20,835 bases of DNA from a virus, in IMG/VR virus record IMGVR_UViG_3300023180_007447, positions 1 through 20,835 of that record, one strand, 5' to 3'. Both the position numbers and the translations under genes were made by a program. The notes under the pieces are model-generated. The model saw nothing but the letters and a program-made list of their open reading frames with translations. It ran no database searches and was not told the origin of the DNA. Numbering within the stretch: position 1 is the first letter of the stretch; each line of letters begins with the position of its first letter. Shown here piece after piece: positions 9,956 through 20,586 of this stretch.

Positions 9956-10780
9956 TCATTTCTTTCTTAGTTTATTTAGAATAGGAAGTTCACTGTCATA
10001 TACTCTCTTTACACCATCTCCCAACATTTTTTCCATGTTAAAAATTCCATTAACAAGTTTTTTGCTGTCTTGAATAGAAGCTGCTTGATCAGATCCATAC
10101 GCAGTTCTATCTTCCGTAATGTGGAATTCAATGCATTCTGCACCCAAAGCAACTGCACCAAAACTTGCCTCAAATCCACTATAGTGATTAGAAAATCCAA
10201 TTTTAAAATTAGAATACTTATCCTTAAGTGTTTGAATGTATCTAAGATTCAATTCATCAATTGCAGATGGATAAGTGCTAGTGCAAGCAAGAATGTATTC
10301 TAAATTTTTAGAAAGTATTCTCACAGAATTATCAACCTGATCTTCGGTAGACATTCCTGTGGAAAGAATGATTGGTTTTCCAGTATCTACCAAATCTTTC
10401 AAGAACTTTTCATCAGTAACAAGAGCAGAAGCAACCTTATGATAATCTACCTCAAGATTATCCTCAATCAATTGAATGCTTTTTCTATCCCAACAAGAAA
10501 CAATAAAATCCATTCCCAAATTTTTAGTGTAGGAATAAAGTTCTTTATATTGCTCAATAGAAAATTCTAATCCTTCTTTTTGCTCCCTATTCGTTGTTCC
10601 CCAAGGAGATTCTCTGTATCTATCAAGTTCTTCTTGAGAGTACACAGACTCAATGTCTCTTTTCTGAAATTTTACTGCATGGCACTTTGATTCAAATGCT
10701 TGGTCAATAAGACGTTTTGCATAAAACATGGAACCATTATGATTGATTCCTATTTCTGCAATTACATAAGTGTTGGTCAT
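9956..10780 (-). CDS. neuB: NeuB-type nonulosonic acid synthase lacking the SAF domain
   Basis: This is a 274-aa TIM-barrel enzyme of the sialic acid synthase family, which condenses phosphoenolpyruvate with a hexosamine to give a nine-carbon acid. Family motifs run in order: EIGINHNG (9-16), FQKRDI, STGMST, CTSTYPS, then SNHYSG and EFHIT, whose histidines match the two metal ligands. The usual length is about 350 because a C-terminal SAF (antifreeze-like) domain follows; here the protein stops right after the barrel. Substrate choice (Neu, Leg or Pse type) cannot be read. It lies three bases after a methyltransferase gene and two genes after the CMP-transferase. Confidence 0.88.
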   Translation of the reverse strand: MTNTYVIAEIGINHNGSMFYAKRLIDQAFESKCHAVKFQKRDIESVYSQEELDRYRESPWGTTNREQKEGLEFSIEQYKELYSYTKNLGMDFIVSCWDRKSIQLIEDNLEVDYHKVASALVTDEKFLKDLVDTGKPIILSTGMSTEDQVDNSVRILSKNLEYILACTSTYPSAIDELNLRYIQTLKDKYSNFKIGFSNHYSGFEASFGAVALGAECIEFHITEDRTAYGSDQAASIQDSKKLVNGIFNMEKMLGDGVKRVYDSELPILNKLRKK

Positions 10781-10783
10781 AAT

Positions 10784-11566
10784 TTATTTTACACAAAAAA
10801 TTGTCATTTTACTTCCATAAAATGGTGGACTATTATCTATCTCATTTTTATCCTTTAAAACTTTGAGTAAATTATCTTGGTTAAAATACTCCGTTTCAAA
10901 ATATGGAAACTCAGAATGTCTAATAGACAATCCAATATCTCTCACCATTCTTTTCAAACTATCCAAACTAAAAAGTGAAATGTGTGTCTGATCATGCAAA
11001 AATCTAAACTTATTCCCATATCTTCTAGCGATAGGAGAATCAAAATCTGGAGTTCCTATGATTAAAAGAGATCCTTTTCTCATCTTATCATAAACAGTTT
11101 TGATTGTAAAGAAGGGATCTTCCAAATGCTCTATTACATGATATAAAAGAATTACATTATAAAAATCAATATGATTATTGCTAATATAATTCTCAATGTT
11201 TGATTCTTCTCTTTTTATCTTATGGTTATTCATTCCATAAGAATCATAGTACCTACTAAGAACAACATCCACTCCAAGATAATTATCAACTCCATCTAAA
11301 CAAGATGCTGGTGAGTATCCACATCCCAAGTCTAAAAGATTAAACTTATCAACATTTAATATTTCAGTAATATTTTTAGAAAGATAATTTAGATTAGCAA
11401 TCCTTCTATTTCTTTCAATCTCACTCTCCATGTATCTTAGGACACCATCAGGATCTACCCTATTAGATTCAGAGTACAGTTCTTCAGACGTAACTTGAGT
11501 ATTTCTTTTTACAAAGTAATCATTTGTTAAATACAAATTTCTTATTTCCGAATTTAAATCAAACAT
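10784..11566 (-). CDS. SAM-dependent methyltransferase, 260 aa
   Basis: This is a class I methyltransferase with a complete motif I (NLLDLGCGYSPASCL, about 74-88), followed by DNYLGVDVVLS and the post-I segment NVILLYHVIEHLEDPFF. That is the Methyltransf_23/11 pattern seen in polysaccharide clusters. The first 70 residues form a helical extension. It lies between the NeuA-like and NeuB-like genes, so O- or N-methylation of the nonulosonic acid or of a neighbouring sugar is a possible role. The actual acceptor is unknown. Confidence 0.75.
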   Translation of the reverse strand: MFDLNSEIRNLYLTNDYFVKRNTQVTSEELYSESNRVDPDGVLRYMESEIERNRRIANLNYLSKNITEILNVDKFNLLDLGCGYSPASCLDGVDNYLGVDVVLSRYYDSYGMNNHKIKREESNIENYISNNHIDFYNVILLYHVIEHLEDPFFTIKTVYDKMRKGSLLIIGTPDFDSPIARRYGNKFRFLHDQTHISLFSLDSLKRMVRDIGLSIRHSEFPYFETEYFNQDNLLKVLKDKNEIDNSPPFYGSKMTIFCVK

Positions 11567-11575
11567 TTTAAAATA

Positions 11576-12259
11576 TTACAAAAGATAATTTTTCATAATT
11601 ATAGAACAAAGTTTTAAGTCTTCAAAAGTATCAACTTCAAAAGACTTCCATTCCTCCATTTCAACTACTCCAATTTTACCATACATTCTATTATTATACT
11701 TCCGTAAATTATCTGGTTTGAACATGTAGAATGATCCATTTTCAATGTATTGAGTCGAACTATCTTGCCTACGTTTCCTATTCTTCCAGTCATAACCAAT
11801 ACTACTCAAACCTTCAGATGTATCTTCCCATAAAGAACAATGAAATGTTTTGTGGGCAGAGAATAATGAATCATGATCTCCTTTTCTTGCGATAGAAATT
11901 GCATTCACTATGTCTGAAGATTCTCTTATTGGAGATGTTACCTGAGGAGCAAAAATCCAATCAGACTTTATGCCATTAGATTCCAAGTAATCAATCGAAT
12001 AAATCCAAGAACTCTCAGATGTTGTTGTGTCATTTGAAACTTCTGCTGTTCTTAGAATACTACCAACACCATATCCGCTTCCAATTTTTAAAATTTGTTC
12101 GGAATCTGAACTAACAAAAATTTGCTCCTTGTCAATTCCAGCATCAATACATTGCTCAATTGTCCAAGAAATTAAAGGTTTGCCACAAAAATCAATTCTA
12201 TTCTTATTTGGAATTCCTTTAGAACCACCTCTAGCCAAAATTATTGCAGATACATTCAT
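11576..12259 (-). CDS. neuA: NeuA-type CMP-nonulosonic acid cytidylyltransferase
   Basis: This 227-aa protein activates sialic-type acids as CMP sugars. The CTP-binding P-loop AIILARGGSKGIPNKN (5-20) is diagnostic for CMP-sugar synthetases. QVTSPIR (about 109-115) and the magnesium-binding FEVDTFEDL near the C-terminus complete the pattern. Length is normal for the family (about 225-230). KDO cytidylyltransferase (KdsB) is a related alternative, but the GGSKGIPNKN form and the nearby NeuB-like gene favour sialic, legionaminic or pseudaminic acid. It starts two bases after... the end of the GT29-like gene. Confidence 0.9.
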   Translation of the reverse strand: MNVSAIILARGGSKGIPNKNRIDFCGKPLISWTIEQCIDAGIDKEQIFVSSDSEQILKIGSGYGVGSILRTAEVSNDTTTSESSWIYSIDYLESNGIKSDWIFAPQVTSPIRESSDIVNAISIARKGDHDSLFSAHKTFHCSLWEDTSEGLSSIGYDWKNRKRRQDSSTQYIENGSFYMFKPDNLRKYNNRMYGKIGVVEMEEWKSFEVDTFEDLKLCSIIMKNYLL

Positions 12260-16309: not shown

Positions 16310-16651
16310 TCAAACACCCTTATATAATTTTACAGAATCTTCTCTAAGTCCTTTACTTTGTGCAATAGCATCATCAACTAAAAGATTAATTGCTTGAACA
16401 AGTTTTGGTCTCTTAGACTTAAAACAAATATCAATTTTTCTTTTTAGATTTGCAATTTCTTCATCAGTTTCAGCTTCTTGAATTGCATCTTCTAGCATCC
16501 AAGTTCTGATATGAAGAATTGACAACTTCTCTACAATTTCCCCAAGATTGTCAGTAGCAATATATTCTACTTCGGGGACTTTATTTTCAGACAAAACTTT
16601 ATTTACCGTTTGAAAAATAATTTCTTCAATGGTTTCTCCAAGATTTTTCAT
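16310..16651 (-). CDS. DUF4254-like helical protein
   Basis: This is a 113-aa all-helical protein. The segment LHIRTWMLEDAIQEAETDEE, then IANLKRKIDICFKSKRPKLV, follows the spacing of the DUF4254 family (LhxxnfxLWhxED, then KRxIDxlNqxRNxxIExID). Members of that family lie in LPS and glycosyltransferase clusters without a known reaction. Here the usual Asn-Arg-Asn residues are changed (FKSKRPK). It overlaps the preceding PLP-enzyme gene by ATGA. It may be a chaperone or partner of one of the glycosyltransferases, but this is a guess. Confidence 0.55.
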   Translation of the reverse strand: MKNLGETIEEIIFQTVNKVLSENKVPEVEYIATDNLGEIVEKLSILHIRTWMLEDAIQEAETDEEIANLKRKIDICFKSKRPKLVQAINLLVDDAIAQSKGLREDSVKLYKGV

Positions 16652-17814
16652 TTCAATTCCTCAATGACTTTTTTAATTAGATTAATTTCTTTATTTGTAA
16701 TAAATTGATTGTTACCTATATATACACAATTCTCGTGCAAAATATCTACATTCAAATTTTTACCTGCACATTCAACTTGATATCCTTTCATGTATGGTTG
16801 TTTGAGTAAATTTCCTCCGACGACAGGACGATATTCTATACCATAATTATCAAATAGTTTTAGCAGTTTAAACTTAGTGTCTTTATTTTTGCACAAAAAT
16901 GGAAAACAAAAAGAACTATTTCCTTCTTTAAATTGTATTTTATAAAAACATTCGTTAGAGTTATGAAGTTCTACAAATTTCTTGTAGTATTTTTTACGAA
17001 CATCAATAAAAGAATCTAATCTTTTGAGTTGTCTAATTCCCAAGACTGCATTCAGTTCAGTATTTCTAAAGTTATACCCATCACTAACAAATAAAAATGT
17101 TTTTTCAATTTCAGGATTTTTGGAGGCATACTCATCAAACTTATTTGAAGCTCTAGCAAGCCCATGTGTTCGCTTCATTTTCATAAGATCATAAAGATCA
17201 CTATCATTAGTAGAAACCATCCCTCCTTCAATAGTGGACATATGATGCCCAAAATAAAAACTGAATGTAGACCCTAAACTATCAGAACCTACTTTACTTC
17301 CATCAAAGTTTGTGCATCCATGAGATTCACAAACATCATCTATAAAAATAGCATTTGGAAAATACTTCTTATAAGAATCAACATTTGCTGGTATGCCCAA
17401 AAGATGCGTCACAAAAACCATCTTAATATCTGGATGCTTTTCTGAGATTCTTTTTAGATTATCCAAATCAAAACTATAATCTTCAAAAGTAATATCACAA
17501 AAAATAGGAGTTAATCCAAGTTGAAAAATAGGATTAATGTTAGTAACCCAAGTACAGGATGGTAAAAGAACTTTATCTCCTTTCTTTAGATTGTACTTAT
17601 CAATAACTGCAGATACTAATAAAAAATTTGCAGTACTTCCGGAAGTCACAAATAAAGAATGCTTACATCCTAACCATTTTGACCATTCACTTTCAAACTC
17701 TTCAACCTTTTTTCCCTGAGTAAATTTATCTGAGGTAAGGATAAATTTAGCAAGATTTACCCTATCTAGAAAAGATAGTGTATTCTTCATCAATGGCCAA
17801 TTATAATTTTTCAT
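16648..17814 (-). CDS. PLP-dependent sugar 3-dehydratase, ColD-like (DegT/DnrJ fold)
   Basis: This 388-aa fold-type I PLP protein has TSGSTANFL (phosphate loop), DDVCESHG (Asp binding the pyridine N) and the loop SFYFGHHMSTIEGG. In sugar aminotransferases of this family the loop carries the catalytic Lys; here that position is His (His190 with this start). This is the hallmark of GDP-4-keto-6-deoxymannose 3-dehydratase (ColD) and the related E1 enzymes. Length equals that of E. coli ColD from memory, and its substrate is exactly the product of Gmd encoded upstream. I start at the ATG 17814 because AGGAG lies five bases before it; the frame is open ten codons further. It overlaps the fcl 3' end by 14 bases. 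Confidence 0.82.
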   Translation of the reverse strand: MKNYNWPLMKNTLSFLDRVNLAKFILTSDKFTQGKKVEEFESEWSKWLGCKHSLFVTSGSTANFLLVSAVIDKYNLKKGDKVLLPSCTWVTNINPIFQLGLTPIFCDITFEDYSFDLDNLKRISEKHPDIKMVFVTHLLGIPANVDSYKKYFPNAIFIDDVCESHGCTNFDGSKVGSDSLGSTFSFYFGHHMSTIEGGMVSTNDSDLYDLMKMKRTHGLARASNKFDEYASKNPEIEKTFLFVSDGYNFRNTELNAVLGIRQLKRLDSFIDVRKKYYKKFVELHNSNECFYKIQFKEGNSSFCFPFLCKNKDTKFKLLKLFDNYGIEYRPVVGGNLLKQPYMKGYQVECAGKNLNVDILHENCVYIGNNQFITNKEINLIKKVIEELK

Positions 17815-18745
17815 ATGTACTCCTATTCTTAAGAAACCAATCAATAGTAATTTTTAATCCCTCTTCCAAAGATGTTTTTGGTTTCCAACCAAGTGCATCC
17901 ATTTTAGAAGTATCTAATGCCCTACGAGGTGTGCCATTTGGTTTTGACGTGTCCCAAGTAATTTTTCCAGTATATCCAATAATATCAGCAACTATTTCAG
18001 AAAGTTCTTTAATACTTACTTCCCTGTGAGGACCAATGTTAATAATCTCTGGATTGTCATATGTATTCATTAAGAAAATAAGTGCTTCTGCTAGATCATC
18101 AGAAAAAATAAATTCTCTAGTTGGAGAACCATCTCCATAGCAAACTACTTCCTGAAGTCCATTTTCTTTTGCATTTAAAAATTTATTAATAAAACTGGGA
18201 AGAACATGACATTGCTCAACATTAAAGTTATCATTAATACCATACAAATTATTAGGCATTACTGAAATAGTAGACATTCCATATTGCTCTGTGTATTTTT
18301 TACACATAACATGTCCAGCAAGTTTTGCTAAAGAATATCCTATGTTAGTTTCTTCAAGTTGTCCCGTCATAAGATATTCTTCTTTGATAGGAACTGGTGC
18401 AAGTTTAGGATAAATGCAGGCAGATCCTAAAAATAAAAGTTTTTTGCATCCATACTTATAAGAAAAATCAATTATATTAGTTTGAATGTTTAAATTATCT
18501 CTAATAAAATCTGCTGGATAGTTTTTATTGTGCCCAATACCACCTACTTTTGCTGCTGCTAGAAAAACATATTCTGGTTGGTTTAGATTAAAAAACCTTT
18601 CAACATCATATTGTTTTCTCAAATCAAAATGAGATCTCGGAGATGAAACAATATTATGATATCCTTGAGATTTTAAATTTCTAACAATAGCAGATCCTAC
18701 TAATCCAGTATTTCCAGCAACGTAAATTTTACTATCAAAGTTCAT
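17801..18745 (-). CDS. fcl: GDP-L-fucose synthase (GDP-4-keto-6-deoxymannose epimerase/reductase)
   Basis: This is a 314-aa extended SDR. The NADP site is [13 protein letters not shown]. The catalytic Ser and Cys are in LGSACIYP, the YxxxK pair in YSLAKLAG, and the epimerase histidine in EQCHVLPSF. These match E. coli Fcl (WcaG) residues Ser107, Cys109, Tyr136/Lys140 and His179. The product is GDP-L-fucose. In the presence of a ColD-like enzyme a ColC-like role is an alternative. I choose ATG 18745, ten bases after AAGGAG, rather than the GTG two codons earlier. It overlaps the end of gmd and the start of the ColD-like gene. Confidence 0.9.
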
Positions 18746-19736
18746 TTTCACACATCTCCTTTACCAAATCATCAAATGAAATTTCTGGTTTCCAACCTAG
18801 TTCATTCCTTGCTTTTGTAGAATCTCCCAATAGAGTTTCTACTTCCGCAGGACGATAGTATTTAGGATTGACTGCAATGATTGTTTTTTTGGTATTCTTA
18901 TCCATACCAATTTCATCTTCACCTTGACCATACCATTCAATGTCAAATCCAAAGTATGGTGCTGCTTTCTCAACAAACTCACGAACTGAATACTGTTCAC
19001 CAGTAGCAATCACATAATCTTCTGGGGAATCTTGCTGGAGCATCATCCACATTCCTCTTACAAAATCTTTTGCATGTCCCCAATCTCTTTTTGCATTTAA
19101 ATTGCCAAGATAAAGAACATTTTGTTTTCCTTCAGAAATTGCTTTAAGACCTATCGTAATCTTACGAGTTACAAATGTTTCACCACGACGAGAAGATTCA
19201 TGGTTGAAGAGAATACCTGTGCAAGCATACATTCCATATGCTTCACGATAATTCTTAGTAATCCAATATCCATAAATTTTAGCACATCCATAAGGAGAAC
19301 GTGGATAGAAAGGTGTAGTTTCTTTCTGAGGAATTTCTTGAACAAGACCAAACAGTTCAGAAGTTGATGCTTGGTAGATACGAACCTTTTCTTCCATGCC
19401 CAACAAACGGACTGCCTCAAGCACCCTCAGGGTGCCTAGAGCATCAACCTGTCCAGTATATTCGGGAATTTCGAAAGAAACTTTCACATGACTCTGAGCA
19501 CCAAGATTATAAATCTCATCTGGTTGAACTTGCTGAATAACTCTCACAAGACTTGTAGAGTCAGTCAGATCTCCATAGTGAAGATTAATTTGTTCATAAA
19601 TGTGATCAATGCGATGAGTATTAATCAATGAGGCACGGCGAACAATACCATGAACTTCATAACCTTTTTCAAGGAGAAGTTCTGCAAGGTATGAACCATC
19701 TTGTCCCGTAATACCAGTAATTAGAGCAACTTTCAT
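18735..19736 (-). CDS. gmd: GDP-mannose 4,6-dehydratase
   Basis: This 333-aa enzyme makes GDP-4-keto-6-deoxy-D-mannose from GDP-mannose, the shared precursor of fucose, colitose, perosamine and rhamnose. NADP site [24 protein letters not shown] loop, catalytic STSELFG and YGCAK, and the signature [18 protein letters not shown] are complete. It is slightly shorter than E. coli Gmd (373). It is first in the glycan operon, directly behind a strong early promoter with a leader of about 15 nt and no clear Shine-Dalgarno. Its base composition is less AT-rich than that of the genes after it. Confidence 0.95.
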
Positions 19737-19757: not shown

Positions 19758-19786
19758 ATTATACAAAAAAAGCAGAGTTTATGCAA
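19758..19786 (-). promoter_or_regulatory. Early sigma70-type promoter of the glycan operon
   Basis: TTGCAT (19786-19781), a 17-bp spacer and a perfect TATAAT (19763-19758) are present on the minus strand. The -35 lies across the loop and arm of the terminator hairpin, and the spacer contains the 3' arm and T-run. The start point is expected near 19751, a short distance before gmd. Confidence 0.75.
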
Positions 19787-19794
19787 CTCTGCTT
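19765..19794 (-). terminator. Strong intrinsic terminator before the glycan operon
   Basis: A perfect 10-bp stem, AAGCAGAGTT / AACTCTGCTT, with a 5-nt loop is followed by a run of seven T on the minus strand. It ends the transcript of the 72-aa gene and the structured RNA region. Confidence 0.9.
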
Positions 19795-20010
19795 CAAAAG
19801 GTCTTTACATGCACGCCAAGTTATTTTTGAAGAGTAATAACTAAATCTCTGCGGGAGTTACCTCCATCCGCACCAACTGCCCTTGAGAGAGGCAGTAAAC
19901 TCATAATAGGGTCATATTGACTCCACCACTTACTTTTTAAAGAAGTAAGAAACTTCGGGATTGAAGGGGATCCTTCACCGACCAGTGCTTTTTAAGTCTC
20001 TCCGTGACTA
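19795..20010 (-). ncRNA. Candidate structured RNA region, seven small hairpins
   Basis: This gene-poor stretch is dense in perfect inverted repeats. The arms are 20006-20009/19995-19998 (GACT), 19972-19977/19962-19967 (tgaagg/ccttca), 19943-19949/19929-19935 (7 bp), 19918-19921/19911-19914, 19891-19896/19876-19881 (ACTGCC/GGCAGT), 19851-19871 (GGAG-GTAA-CTCC within GCG/CGC, a GNRA loop) and 19836-19842/19819-19825 (7 bp). A strong terminator follows. It lies in the transcript of the 72-aa gene. It could be a 3' UTR, a processed small RNA or a cis-regulator; a possible small ORF overlaps it. No known family was matched by eye. Confidence 0.45.
19821..19904 (-). CDS. Possible 27-aa peptide coupled to a 4-codon leader ORF
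   Basis: A 27-codon ORF starts MSLLPLSRAVGADGGN and ends VITLQK. Its ATG overlaps by ATGA the stop of a mini-ORF (ATG ACC CTA TTA TGA, 19915-19901), and that mini-ORF has GGAG five bases before it. This is the coupling pattern used throughout the genome. Three hairpins of the structured region lie inside it. It may be a real micro-gene, a leader peptide, or chance. Not recognised. Confidence 0.35.
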   Translation of the reverse strand: MSLLPLSRAVGADGGNSRRDLVITLQK

Positions 20011-20014
20011 TTAA

Positions 20015-20233
20015 TCAAGAAACCTCTACAGGTTGTTCAAGATCTGCATAAAGGTAGTCCATCATGATTTCATAATCGTCACCAGGATCACCAGAGAACA
20101 CAACACCACTATTTTCATAATAGCGTCGAACCTTTTTGAAAAGTTTCGGATTCTTTACATCAAGGAAGAAGTCCCCATTTGCAGCACCACGAAGAGTATC
20201 GAGGTCTTTTTTGAACTTAGAAGTGAGAGTCAT
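20015..20233 (-). CDS. Unknown 72-aa protein, early gene
   Basis: This small, highly charged soluble protein has the pattern MTLTSKFKKDLDTLR, NPKLFKKVRRYYENSG, VVFSGDPGDDYEIMMDYLYA. It is probably a small alpha/beta fold with an acidic C-terminal end. I have the impression of similar small proteins in cyanophages, but cannot assign a function. It stands directly behind a strong early promoter with a very short leader and no good Shine-Dalgarno, and is followed by the structured RNA region and terminator. Early expression and small size fit a host-takeover factor, as inference only. Confidence 0.7.
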   Translation of the reverse strand: MTLTSKFKKDLDTLRGAANGDFFLDVKNPKLFKKVRRYYENSGVVFSGDPGDDYEIMMDYLYADLEQPVEVS

Positions 20234-20255: not shown

Positions 20256-20284
20256 ATTATAAGGTGTATGACTTATAAAGTCAA
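20256..20284 (-). promoter_or_regulatory. Early sigma70-type promoter of the 72-aa gene
   Basis: TTGACT (20284-20279), a 17-bp spacer and TATAAT (20261-20256) on the minus strand. The -35 and spacer include the inverted repeat GACTT-TAT-AAGTC. A hairpin lies immediately upstream. Confidence 0.8.
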
Positions 20285-20390: not shown

Positions 20391-20564
20391 TTAAGATGCT
20401 TCGTTGTTGAGTTCTGTATAAATCTTTATCAAATCATCATTAGCAGGCACCATCACTGCTGCTTTTCCATCCTCATTTACAATCCCTATCGTTTCACCGT
20501 TCTCCACTCTCTCAAACAGTTCGTCAAACTTTTCTTCCCACTCAGCCACTGTGTAAATTTCCAT
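20391..20564 (-). CDS. Phd/YefM-like antitoxin-fold protein without a toxin partner
   Basis: This 57-aa protein, EIYTVAEWEEKFDELFERVE, NGETIGIVNEDGKAAVMVPA, has the core of the Phd/YefM family: a strand, the helical FDELFERVENGE, then a strand with G-K-AAV-VP. In toxin-antitoxin modules this domain forms dimers and binds operator DNA, while the C-terminus neutralises a toxin. Here the tail is only about 14 residues (NDDLIKIYTELNNEAS). No toxin gene is adjacent; it sits between two tRNA genes. I start at the ATG after tRNA-Pro; the longer frame would run through the tRNA. It has no clear Shine-Dalgarno. Confidence 0.68.
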   Translation of the reverse strand: MEIYTVAEWEEKFDELFERVENGETIGIVNEDGKAAVMVPANDDLIKIYTELNNEAS

Positions 20565-20578
20565 TCGTGTAGTTGATG

Positions 20579-20586
20579 TATTTATT
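20579..20586 (-). promoter_or_regulatory. Weak late-promoter-like motif AATAAATA
   Basis: It lies between tRNA-Pro and the antitoxin-like gene, 14 bases before its ATG. One mismatch to the T4 late element. It would give an almost leaderless mRNA. Low certainty. Confidence 0.25.

Follow-up and report, generated by a model that had tools for sequence, protein, structure and literature searches.

The RNA motif wcaG appears, in the cyanophage DNA studied here, to be one part of a longer row of pseudoknots which would make up the 3' untranslated region (UTR) of an early phage transcript. We give a probability of roughly 0.55 to the reading that this array, restricted to phages, caps that transcript and probably stabilises it, or else gives rise to a stable RNA. 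From 2010 onwards wcaG has been listed among the orphan riboswitch candidates, with exopolysaccharide and high-light genes as its presumed targets. Should it instead form the 3' end of an early transcript, the search for a ligand would have been aimed at the wrong gene, and a well-known marine phage family would be using tandem pseudoknots as mRNA tails. The laboratory Synechococcus phages Syn9, S-PM2 and S-SM2 carry the array at one place each and their hosts are culturable, so that the question can be put to the test at once.

The element in the window

The window, that is, the whole stretch of DNA analysed, is a 20,835-base virus record with the gene set of a cyanophage. The element lies on its minus strand between an ORF of 72 amino acids (20233–20015) and gmd (19736–18735), and runs from 20009 down to a T run at 19765 (Table 1). 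A sequence-only reading had described a hairpin-dense region at 19795–20010, and the inverted repeats, the GUAA loop, the terminator and two short ORFs are all present there as it claimed, the 3' end of the element lying beyond those limits. The repeats occupy 19770–19779/19785–19794 (10/10), 19929–19938/19940–19949 (9/10), 19819–19825/19836–19842, 19876–19881/19891–19896 and 19962–19967/19972–19977, and the GGAG-GUAA-CUCC loop sits in the linker hairpin at 19871–19851. The description of an RNA that is structured, closes with a strong terminator and lies beside glycan genes was likewise borne out, with the terminator on the minus strand. Terminator-like sites number three in 1.2 kb against 0.8 expected.

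The suspicion that this might be a wcaG RNA was confirmed with the Rfam covariance model: RF01761 matches the minus strand at 19904–19805 over model positions 1–98 [73.5 bits against a gathering cut-off of 42, E 2.8e-12], which places the element in that family. A second, sub-threshold copy (25.1 bits, 20026–19914) lies directly upstream of the main match. The glutamine riboswitch families, which the same reading had named as candidates for the search, gave no match in the region even at E 5, nor did any other Rfam family down to that value save a chance lncRNA match. The glnA and Downstream-peptide RNAs (RF01739 and relatives) resemble the element in being structured RNAs of cyanobacteria and cyanophages, glnA sometimes in tandem, but differ in layout.

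Folding energy is only moderately unusual, with z scores of –1.98 (minus strand) and –3.30 (plus strand), and therefore neither proves the element nor gives its strand. For both, the evidence is the minus-strand Rfam match together with covariation among relatives. An element on the plus strand, which by energy folds equally well, was rejected, since the family match and the pseudoknot geometry (a 3-nt loop across a stem of 6–7 bp and a 6-nt loop across a stem of 4 bp) fit the minus strand only.

Table 1. Positions of the pseudoknot units, linkers and flanking signals and genes, in the order of the minus strand
Feature	Position	Strand	Remarks
Sigma-70-type promoter, TTGACT-17-TATAAT	20256..20284	-	11/12 matches; for the transcription unit ending in the array
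Early gene, 72 aa, phrog_552 of the conserved block, T4-like GC 249	20015..20233	-	E 2.6e-27; function unknown
Unit 1 (type II), hairpin AGUC-ACGGAGA-GACU + UAAAAAGCAC-UGG	19982..20009	-	Likely pseudoknot CGG/CUG
Linker hairpin CGG-UGAAGG-AUCC-CCUUCA-AUC-CCG	19956..19980	-	Same linker in loci L011, L055, L059 and L120
Unit 2 (type I pseudoknot), AAG-UUU-CUUACUU-CUU-UAAA-AAGUAAG-UGG	19926..19955	-	Inside the sub-threshold wcaG match 20026–19914
Linker hairpin GG-A-GUCA-AUA-UGAC-CC	19909..19924	-	Contains the start of a non-conserved four-codon ORF
Unit 3 (type I pseudoknot), GAG-UUU-ACUGCC-U-CUC-UCAAG-GGCAGU-UGG	19873..19902	-	First half of Rfam wcaG
Linker hairpin GCGGAUGGAG-GUAA-CUCCCGC	19851..19871	-	GNRA-type loop; outer pairs nearly invariant
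Unit 4 (type I pseudoknot), AGAG-AUUU-AGUUAUU-A-CUCU-UCAAA-AAUAACU-UGG	19816..19850	-	Second half of Rfam wcaG
Rfam RF01761 wcaG match	19805..19904	-	73.5 bits, gathering 42
Intrinsic terminator AAGCAGAGUU-GCAUA-AACUCUGCUUUUUUU	19765..19794	-	10/10 inverted repeat; scanned as terminator-like site 19795–19769
Promoter of the next operon, TTGCAT-17-TATAAT	19758..19786	-	Overlaps the terminator
gmd (GDP-mannose 4,6-dehydratase)	18735..19736	-	First gene of the glycan operon; PF16363, E 2.9e-152

Pseudoknot fold and its covariation

Relatives were collected by two pattern scans of IMG/VR, which gave about 92 real loci (the first scan was too loose, about one third of its matches being real), and by blastn against phage records, which added many named cyanomyoviruses. 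With the relatives aligned by eye, the Rfam motif proved to be a portion of a longer chain of H-type pseudoknots joined by hairpins. The Rfam consensus (cmscan) has three hairpins over 98 nt; here these hairpins are pseudoknot halves, further units lie upstream, and the fixed neighbour is an upstream block of gp205/gp206-type genes. What is common to both is the last two pseudoknots with their linker, the UGGUGCGGAUGG...CCCGC block, the cyanophage origin and the adjoining exopolysaccharide genes. The pseudoknots may already have been drawn by Weinberg et al. (2010, PMC2864571). The same paper describes the STAXI motif, a pseudoknot in two or three tandem copies in bacterial or phage DNA; by this description STAXI is set apart, being adjoined by genes for DNA-binding proteins and possibly acting as single-stranded DNA.

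Each type I unit is built as GUUU, stem, A-rich loop, stem and UGGYG, in which the nucleotides just ahead of UUU pair with the central part of the loop, the arrangement of an H-type pseudoknot. In the last unit this crossing stem (S1) reads AGAG/CTCT in the window; among relatives it is CTGG/CCAG, CCTG/CAGG, CAGG/CCTG, CCAG/CTGG, CTAG/CTAG, CTGAG/CTCAG or CGAG/CTCG.

To test the fold, 94 distinct sequences were aligned with MAFFT without use of structure, the structure itself being taken from one aligned sequence; it comprised the stem of the first unit, the linker hairpin and the two stems of the last unit. Pairing was retained in 97.0% of cells, compared with 77.9% in shuffles and 31–53% for structures slid by 1–3 columns. 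The compensatory changes for which the sequence-only reading had recommended a search were abundant: both partners had changed in 386 cells, compared with 110 for shuffles and 17–47 for slid structures. All four S1 pairs of the last unit showed two-sided changes. As expected of wcaG, the conserved stems had 95–100% of their cells paired, with two-sided changes in the variable stems. As an independent check, S1 strands were swapped between loci; three-base matches, 25 of 26 in the last unit and 37 of 63 in the penultimate one, then dropped to means of 8.8 and 15.6 respectively. We regard the RNA fold of the last two pseudoknots as demonstrated by this comparison of sequences.

The 5'-most units (type II) differ in layout, being composed of AGUC, loop, GACU, tail and UGG; their hairpin stems vary with the pairing kept, and for unit 1 the variants include AGTC, AGAC, CGTC and CGTG. 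Pairing of the type II loop with the tail (CGG with CUG, UGG with CC) is only suggestive. Taken together, the minus strand of the window is predicted to fold as a chain of four pseudoknots and joining hairpins, unit 1 being the less certain, with Rfam wcaG as its last two.

Among the named complete records 28 of 30 contained a match, nearly all at one place per genome (S-PM2 has one); P-SSM2 and P-SSM4 of this set gave none. The distribution is that described for wcaG, in cyanophages and marine samples, the carriers here belonging to the Kyanoviridae. A family search of cyanobacterial genomes gave 0 of 292, in a sample where no positive control genome matched. Host origin was set aside; a pattern scan of genome contigs hit unrelated, mostly GC-rich bacteria, apparently by chance. 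On these searches the array is restricted to phages.

Early genes upstream and a putative 3' tail

Of 109 loci, 103 encode proteins of the gp205/gp206/GC249/Phd block within 1.8 kb upstream of the array; on the downstream side the count is 0 of 105. A promoter with at least 10 of 12 consensus matches precedes the first matched gene of the block in 71 of 92 loci, usually 34–35 nt ahead of the point where the alignment to that gene starts; shuffled sequences gave 1.05 and random stretches 34 of 460. In the window the stop codon of the phrog_552 gene lies 5 nt before the array, and in many relatives the stop codon of the block is found inside the first pseudoknot. Counting ORFs of at least 55 codons, we found a stop codon in the interval from –28 to +8 relative to the parsed start for 74 of 116 arrays, compared with 74 of 313 tRNA genes on those contigs and 47 of 460 randomly chosen places; array starts came from a home-made parser which missed some first units, and phage genes are tightly packed, so that such proximity is partly expected. 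From the loci compared, the block is established as a fixed upstream neighbour, and the promoter and terminator patterns are established too, although the synteny could reflect a conserved genome neighbourhood instead of a shared transcript. In Syn1, S-SCSM1 and S-SCSM2R a different gene lies directly ahead of the array.

Several small “hypothetical proteins” overlie the array in deposited genomes, namely syn9 gp208, S-SM2 SSM2_190, S-RSM4 SRSM4_042 and Syn1_206; these are probably spurious gene calls. Between tRNA-Pro and tRNA-Met the window encodes a Phd-like antitoxin (20391–20582, minus strand; phrog_375, E 3e-14), beside which no toxin gene was recognised. In many cyanophages the block that precedes the wcaG array includes this phrog_375 antitoxin as well.

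The order seen is promoter, gp205/gp206-type genes, stop codon, pseudoknot chain, terminator or tRNA, and new promoter. Because the chain usually begins, by sequence pattern, at the last stop codon of the block and ends in a terminator, we consider it the probable structured tail of the early-block transcript and not a switch for sugar genes. We infer the borders of this transcript from sequence: it would start at the promoter near 20256, carry the 72-aa phrog_552 gene and stop at the terminator at 19794–19765, with the pseudoknot chain as its whole 3' untranslated tail, while the glycan operon would start anew from the promoter overlapping the terminator. Stacked, compact pseudoknots would offer a hard entry to 3'-to-5' nucleases and could keep a terminator-ended tail alive, the outcome being either a protected early mRNA or a stable RNA released from it. 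Where the stop codon lies within the first pseudoknot, that unit would presumably refold after each terminating ribosome.

The upstream pseudoknot domain of the tobamovirus 3' UTR consists of consecutive H-type pseudoknots placed directly after a stop codon. The cyanophage array resembles it in that a row of pseudoknots follows a stop codon, here in a putative 3' UTR, and in some phages a tRNA comes next; it differs in belonging to an unrelated virus and sequence, and in being followed by a bacterial terminator or a true tRNA gene, so that the analogy is one of working only. By analogy with these plant-virus stalks, nuclease protection seems the likeliest function. A bolder proposal, which we hold only tentatively, is that wcaG is the end piece of a modular, phage-only pseudoknot chain at the 3' end of an early transcript, serving either to protect it or to supply a stable RNA directed at the host, and would thus be a bacterial-virus counterpart of the plant-virus stalks rather than a glycan riboswitch.

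Downstream genes and other readings

In Rfam and by Weinberg et al. (2010, PMC2864571) wcaG is classed as a likely 5' cis-regulator of exopolysaccharide and high-light genes. In those parts of the literature naming wcaG that were accessible, no functional test was found and the same view is repeated. Such a regulator would be a metabolite-sensing riboswitch, or an attenuator gating read-through into glycan or high-light genes. Consistent with this, the downstream genes of the IMG/VR loci are mostly those of nucleotide-sugar and glycan metabolism, as first published, a terminator stands between the RNA and the gene, and the second promoter might serve as an alternative start. On the other side, the next gene in most of the 27 named phages is something else, such as a tRNA, hli, an oxygenase or a tail fibre. 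Passing over some spurious annotated “genes” across the array, we counted a glycan gene in six (S-SKS1, DSL-LC03, S-SM2, Bellamy, S-SRM01 and SynMITS9220M01), a tRNA in nine (S-CAM1, S-RSM4, S-CREM1, S-RIM8, S-CAM3, S-WAM2, S-RIM50, S-IOM18 and S-H9-2), a 2OG-Fe(II) oxygenase in three, hli in one (syn9) and others in eight. The earlier placement of the RNA “upstream of the glycan operon” is thus right as to position in this window but does not hold in general, where the constant neighbour is the preceding gp205/gp206 block.

A terminator was found in 72 non-identical loci, typically 47–61 nt past the core (104–111 nt in three); some phages have no terminator after the array and a tRNA instead. 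Past the terminator, 48 of 71 loci have a perfect TATAAT, mostly 5–8 nt beyond the stem, and 17 nt away, within the terminator hairpin, is a –35 element, TTGCAT in 34 loci or TTGACA in nine. Such composites of terminator and promoter number 39 at arrays against three elsewhere in 829 kb. Since promoter and terminator overlap, the glycan operon seems to start afresh after the RNA, and with the promoter lying after the terminator in most loci the downstream gene's own transcript would lack the RNA altogether. Furthermore, pairing of the terminator arm with the RNA scored 7.17 observed and 7.07 (sd 0.09) with arms swapped, 32 of 200 swaps being as high. The alternative antiterminator that a transcription-attenuating riboswitch would use was rejected on this ground, and the suggested attenuation of read-through into the glycan operon found no backing. 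A 5' UTR of exopolysaccharide or high-light genes does not fit the named phages either, given the six glycan neighbours, the single hli and the downstream gene's own promoter in most glycan-type loci. The published role does not appear to be what the wider sample shows, and we consider a 5' regulator unlikely.

Alternatively, processing of the early transcript at its 3' end might yield a stable small RNA that acts in trans, such as one that sequesters an RNA-binding protein in the manner of CsrB. GGA is present in the loops or bulges of several units, with ANGGA-like loops in those of type II; the array is single-copy and modular, has its own terminator and keeps its unpaired blocks highly conserved (UGGUGCGGAUGG); and RNase P cleavage would free a 3' end where a tRNA follows. 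The GG of the type II loops is, however, predicted to pair in the pseudoknot. Any trans role we infer in a conditional sense, and a purely trans-acting RNA strikes us as improbable beside the protective or RNA-yielding 3' tail.

The sequence-only reading had also raised coupled micro-ORFs acting as a leader-peptide attenuator. The four-codon ORF (ATG at 19915) and the 27-codon ORF (ATG at 19904) are both in the window with a GGAG upstream, but this GGAG belongs to the linker hairpin GGAGUCA..UGACCC, the four-codon ORF with its ATGA overlap recurs in only 5 of 92 loci, the 27-codon frame has an ATG start in 12, lacks it in 80 and is interrupted in 41 by frame shifts and stops, and core lengths modulo 3 fill all three classes (36, 30 and 26), so that a leader peptide, lacking in these loci any short ORF conserved in start, frame and codon bias, is scarcely credible. 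Both ORFs are best read as by-products of an RNA.

The glycan genes of the window (9956–12259 and 16648–19736, minus strand) include Gmd, a GDP-fucose-synthase-like epimerase and a NeuB-family synthase (PF03102), and the operon also carries a CTP_transf_3 cytidylyltransferase (PF02348) and a DegT aminotransferase; this set points to sugars of the fucose and nonulosonic-acid types. At 1998–2820 of the S-CREM1 locus (L199), wcaG, manA and an RNA annotated as abiF lie interspersed among tRNA genes, an arrangement which hints that manA may also not be a 5' switch. A longer type of array, in loci L066, L098, L187 and L198 (S-RSM4), continues 3' of the wcaG core with CCCCTTCCGTGTGGTTG, a GTTG/CAAC pseudoknot and GTGGCGTGCATG, and precedes tail-fibre-like genes in several IMG/VR loci.
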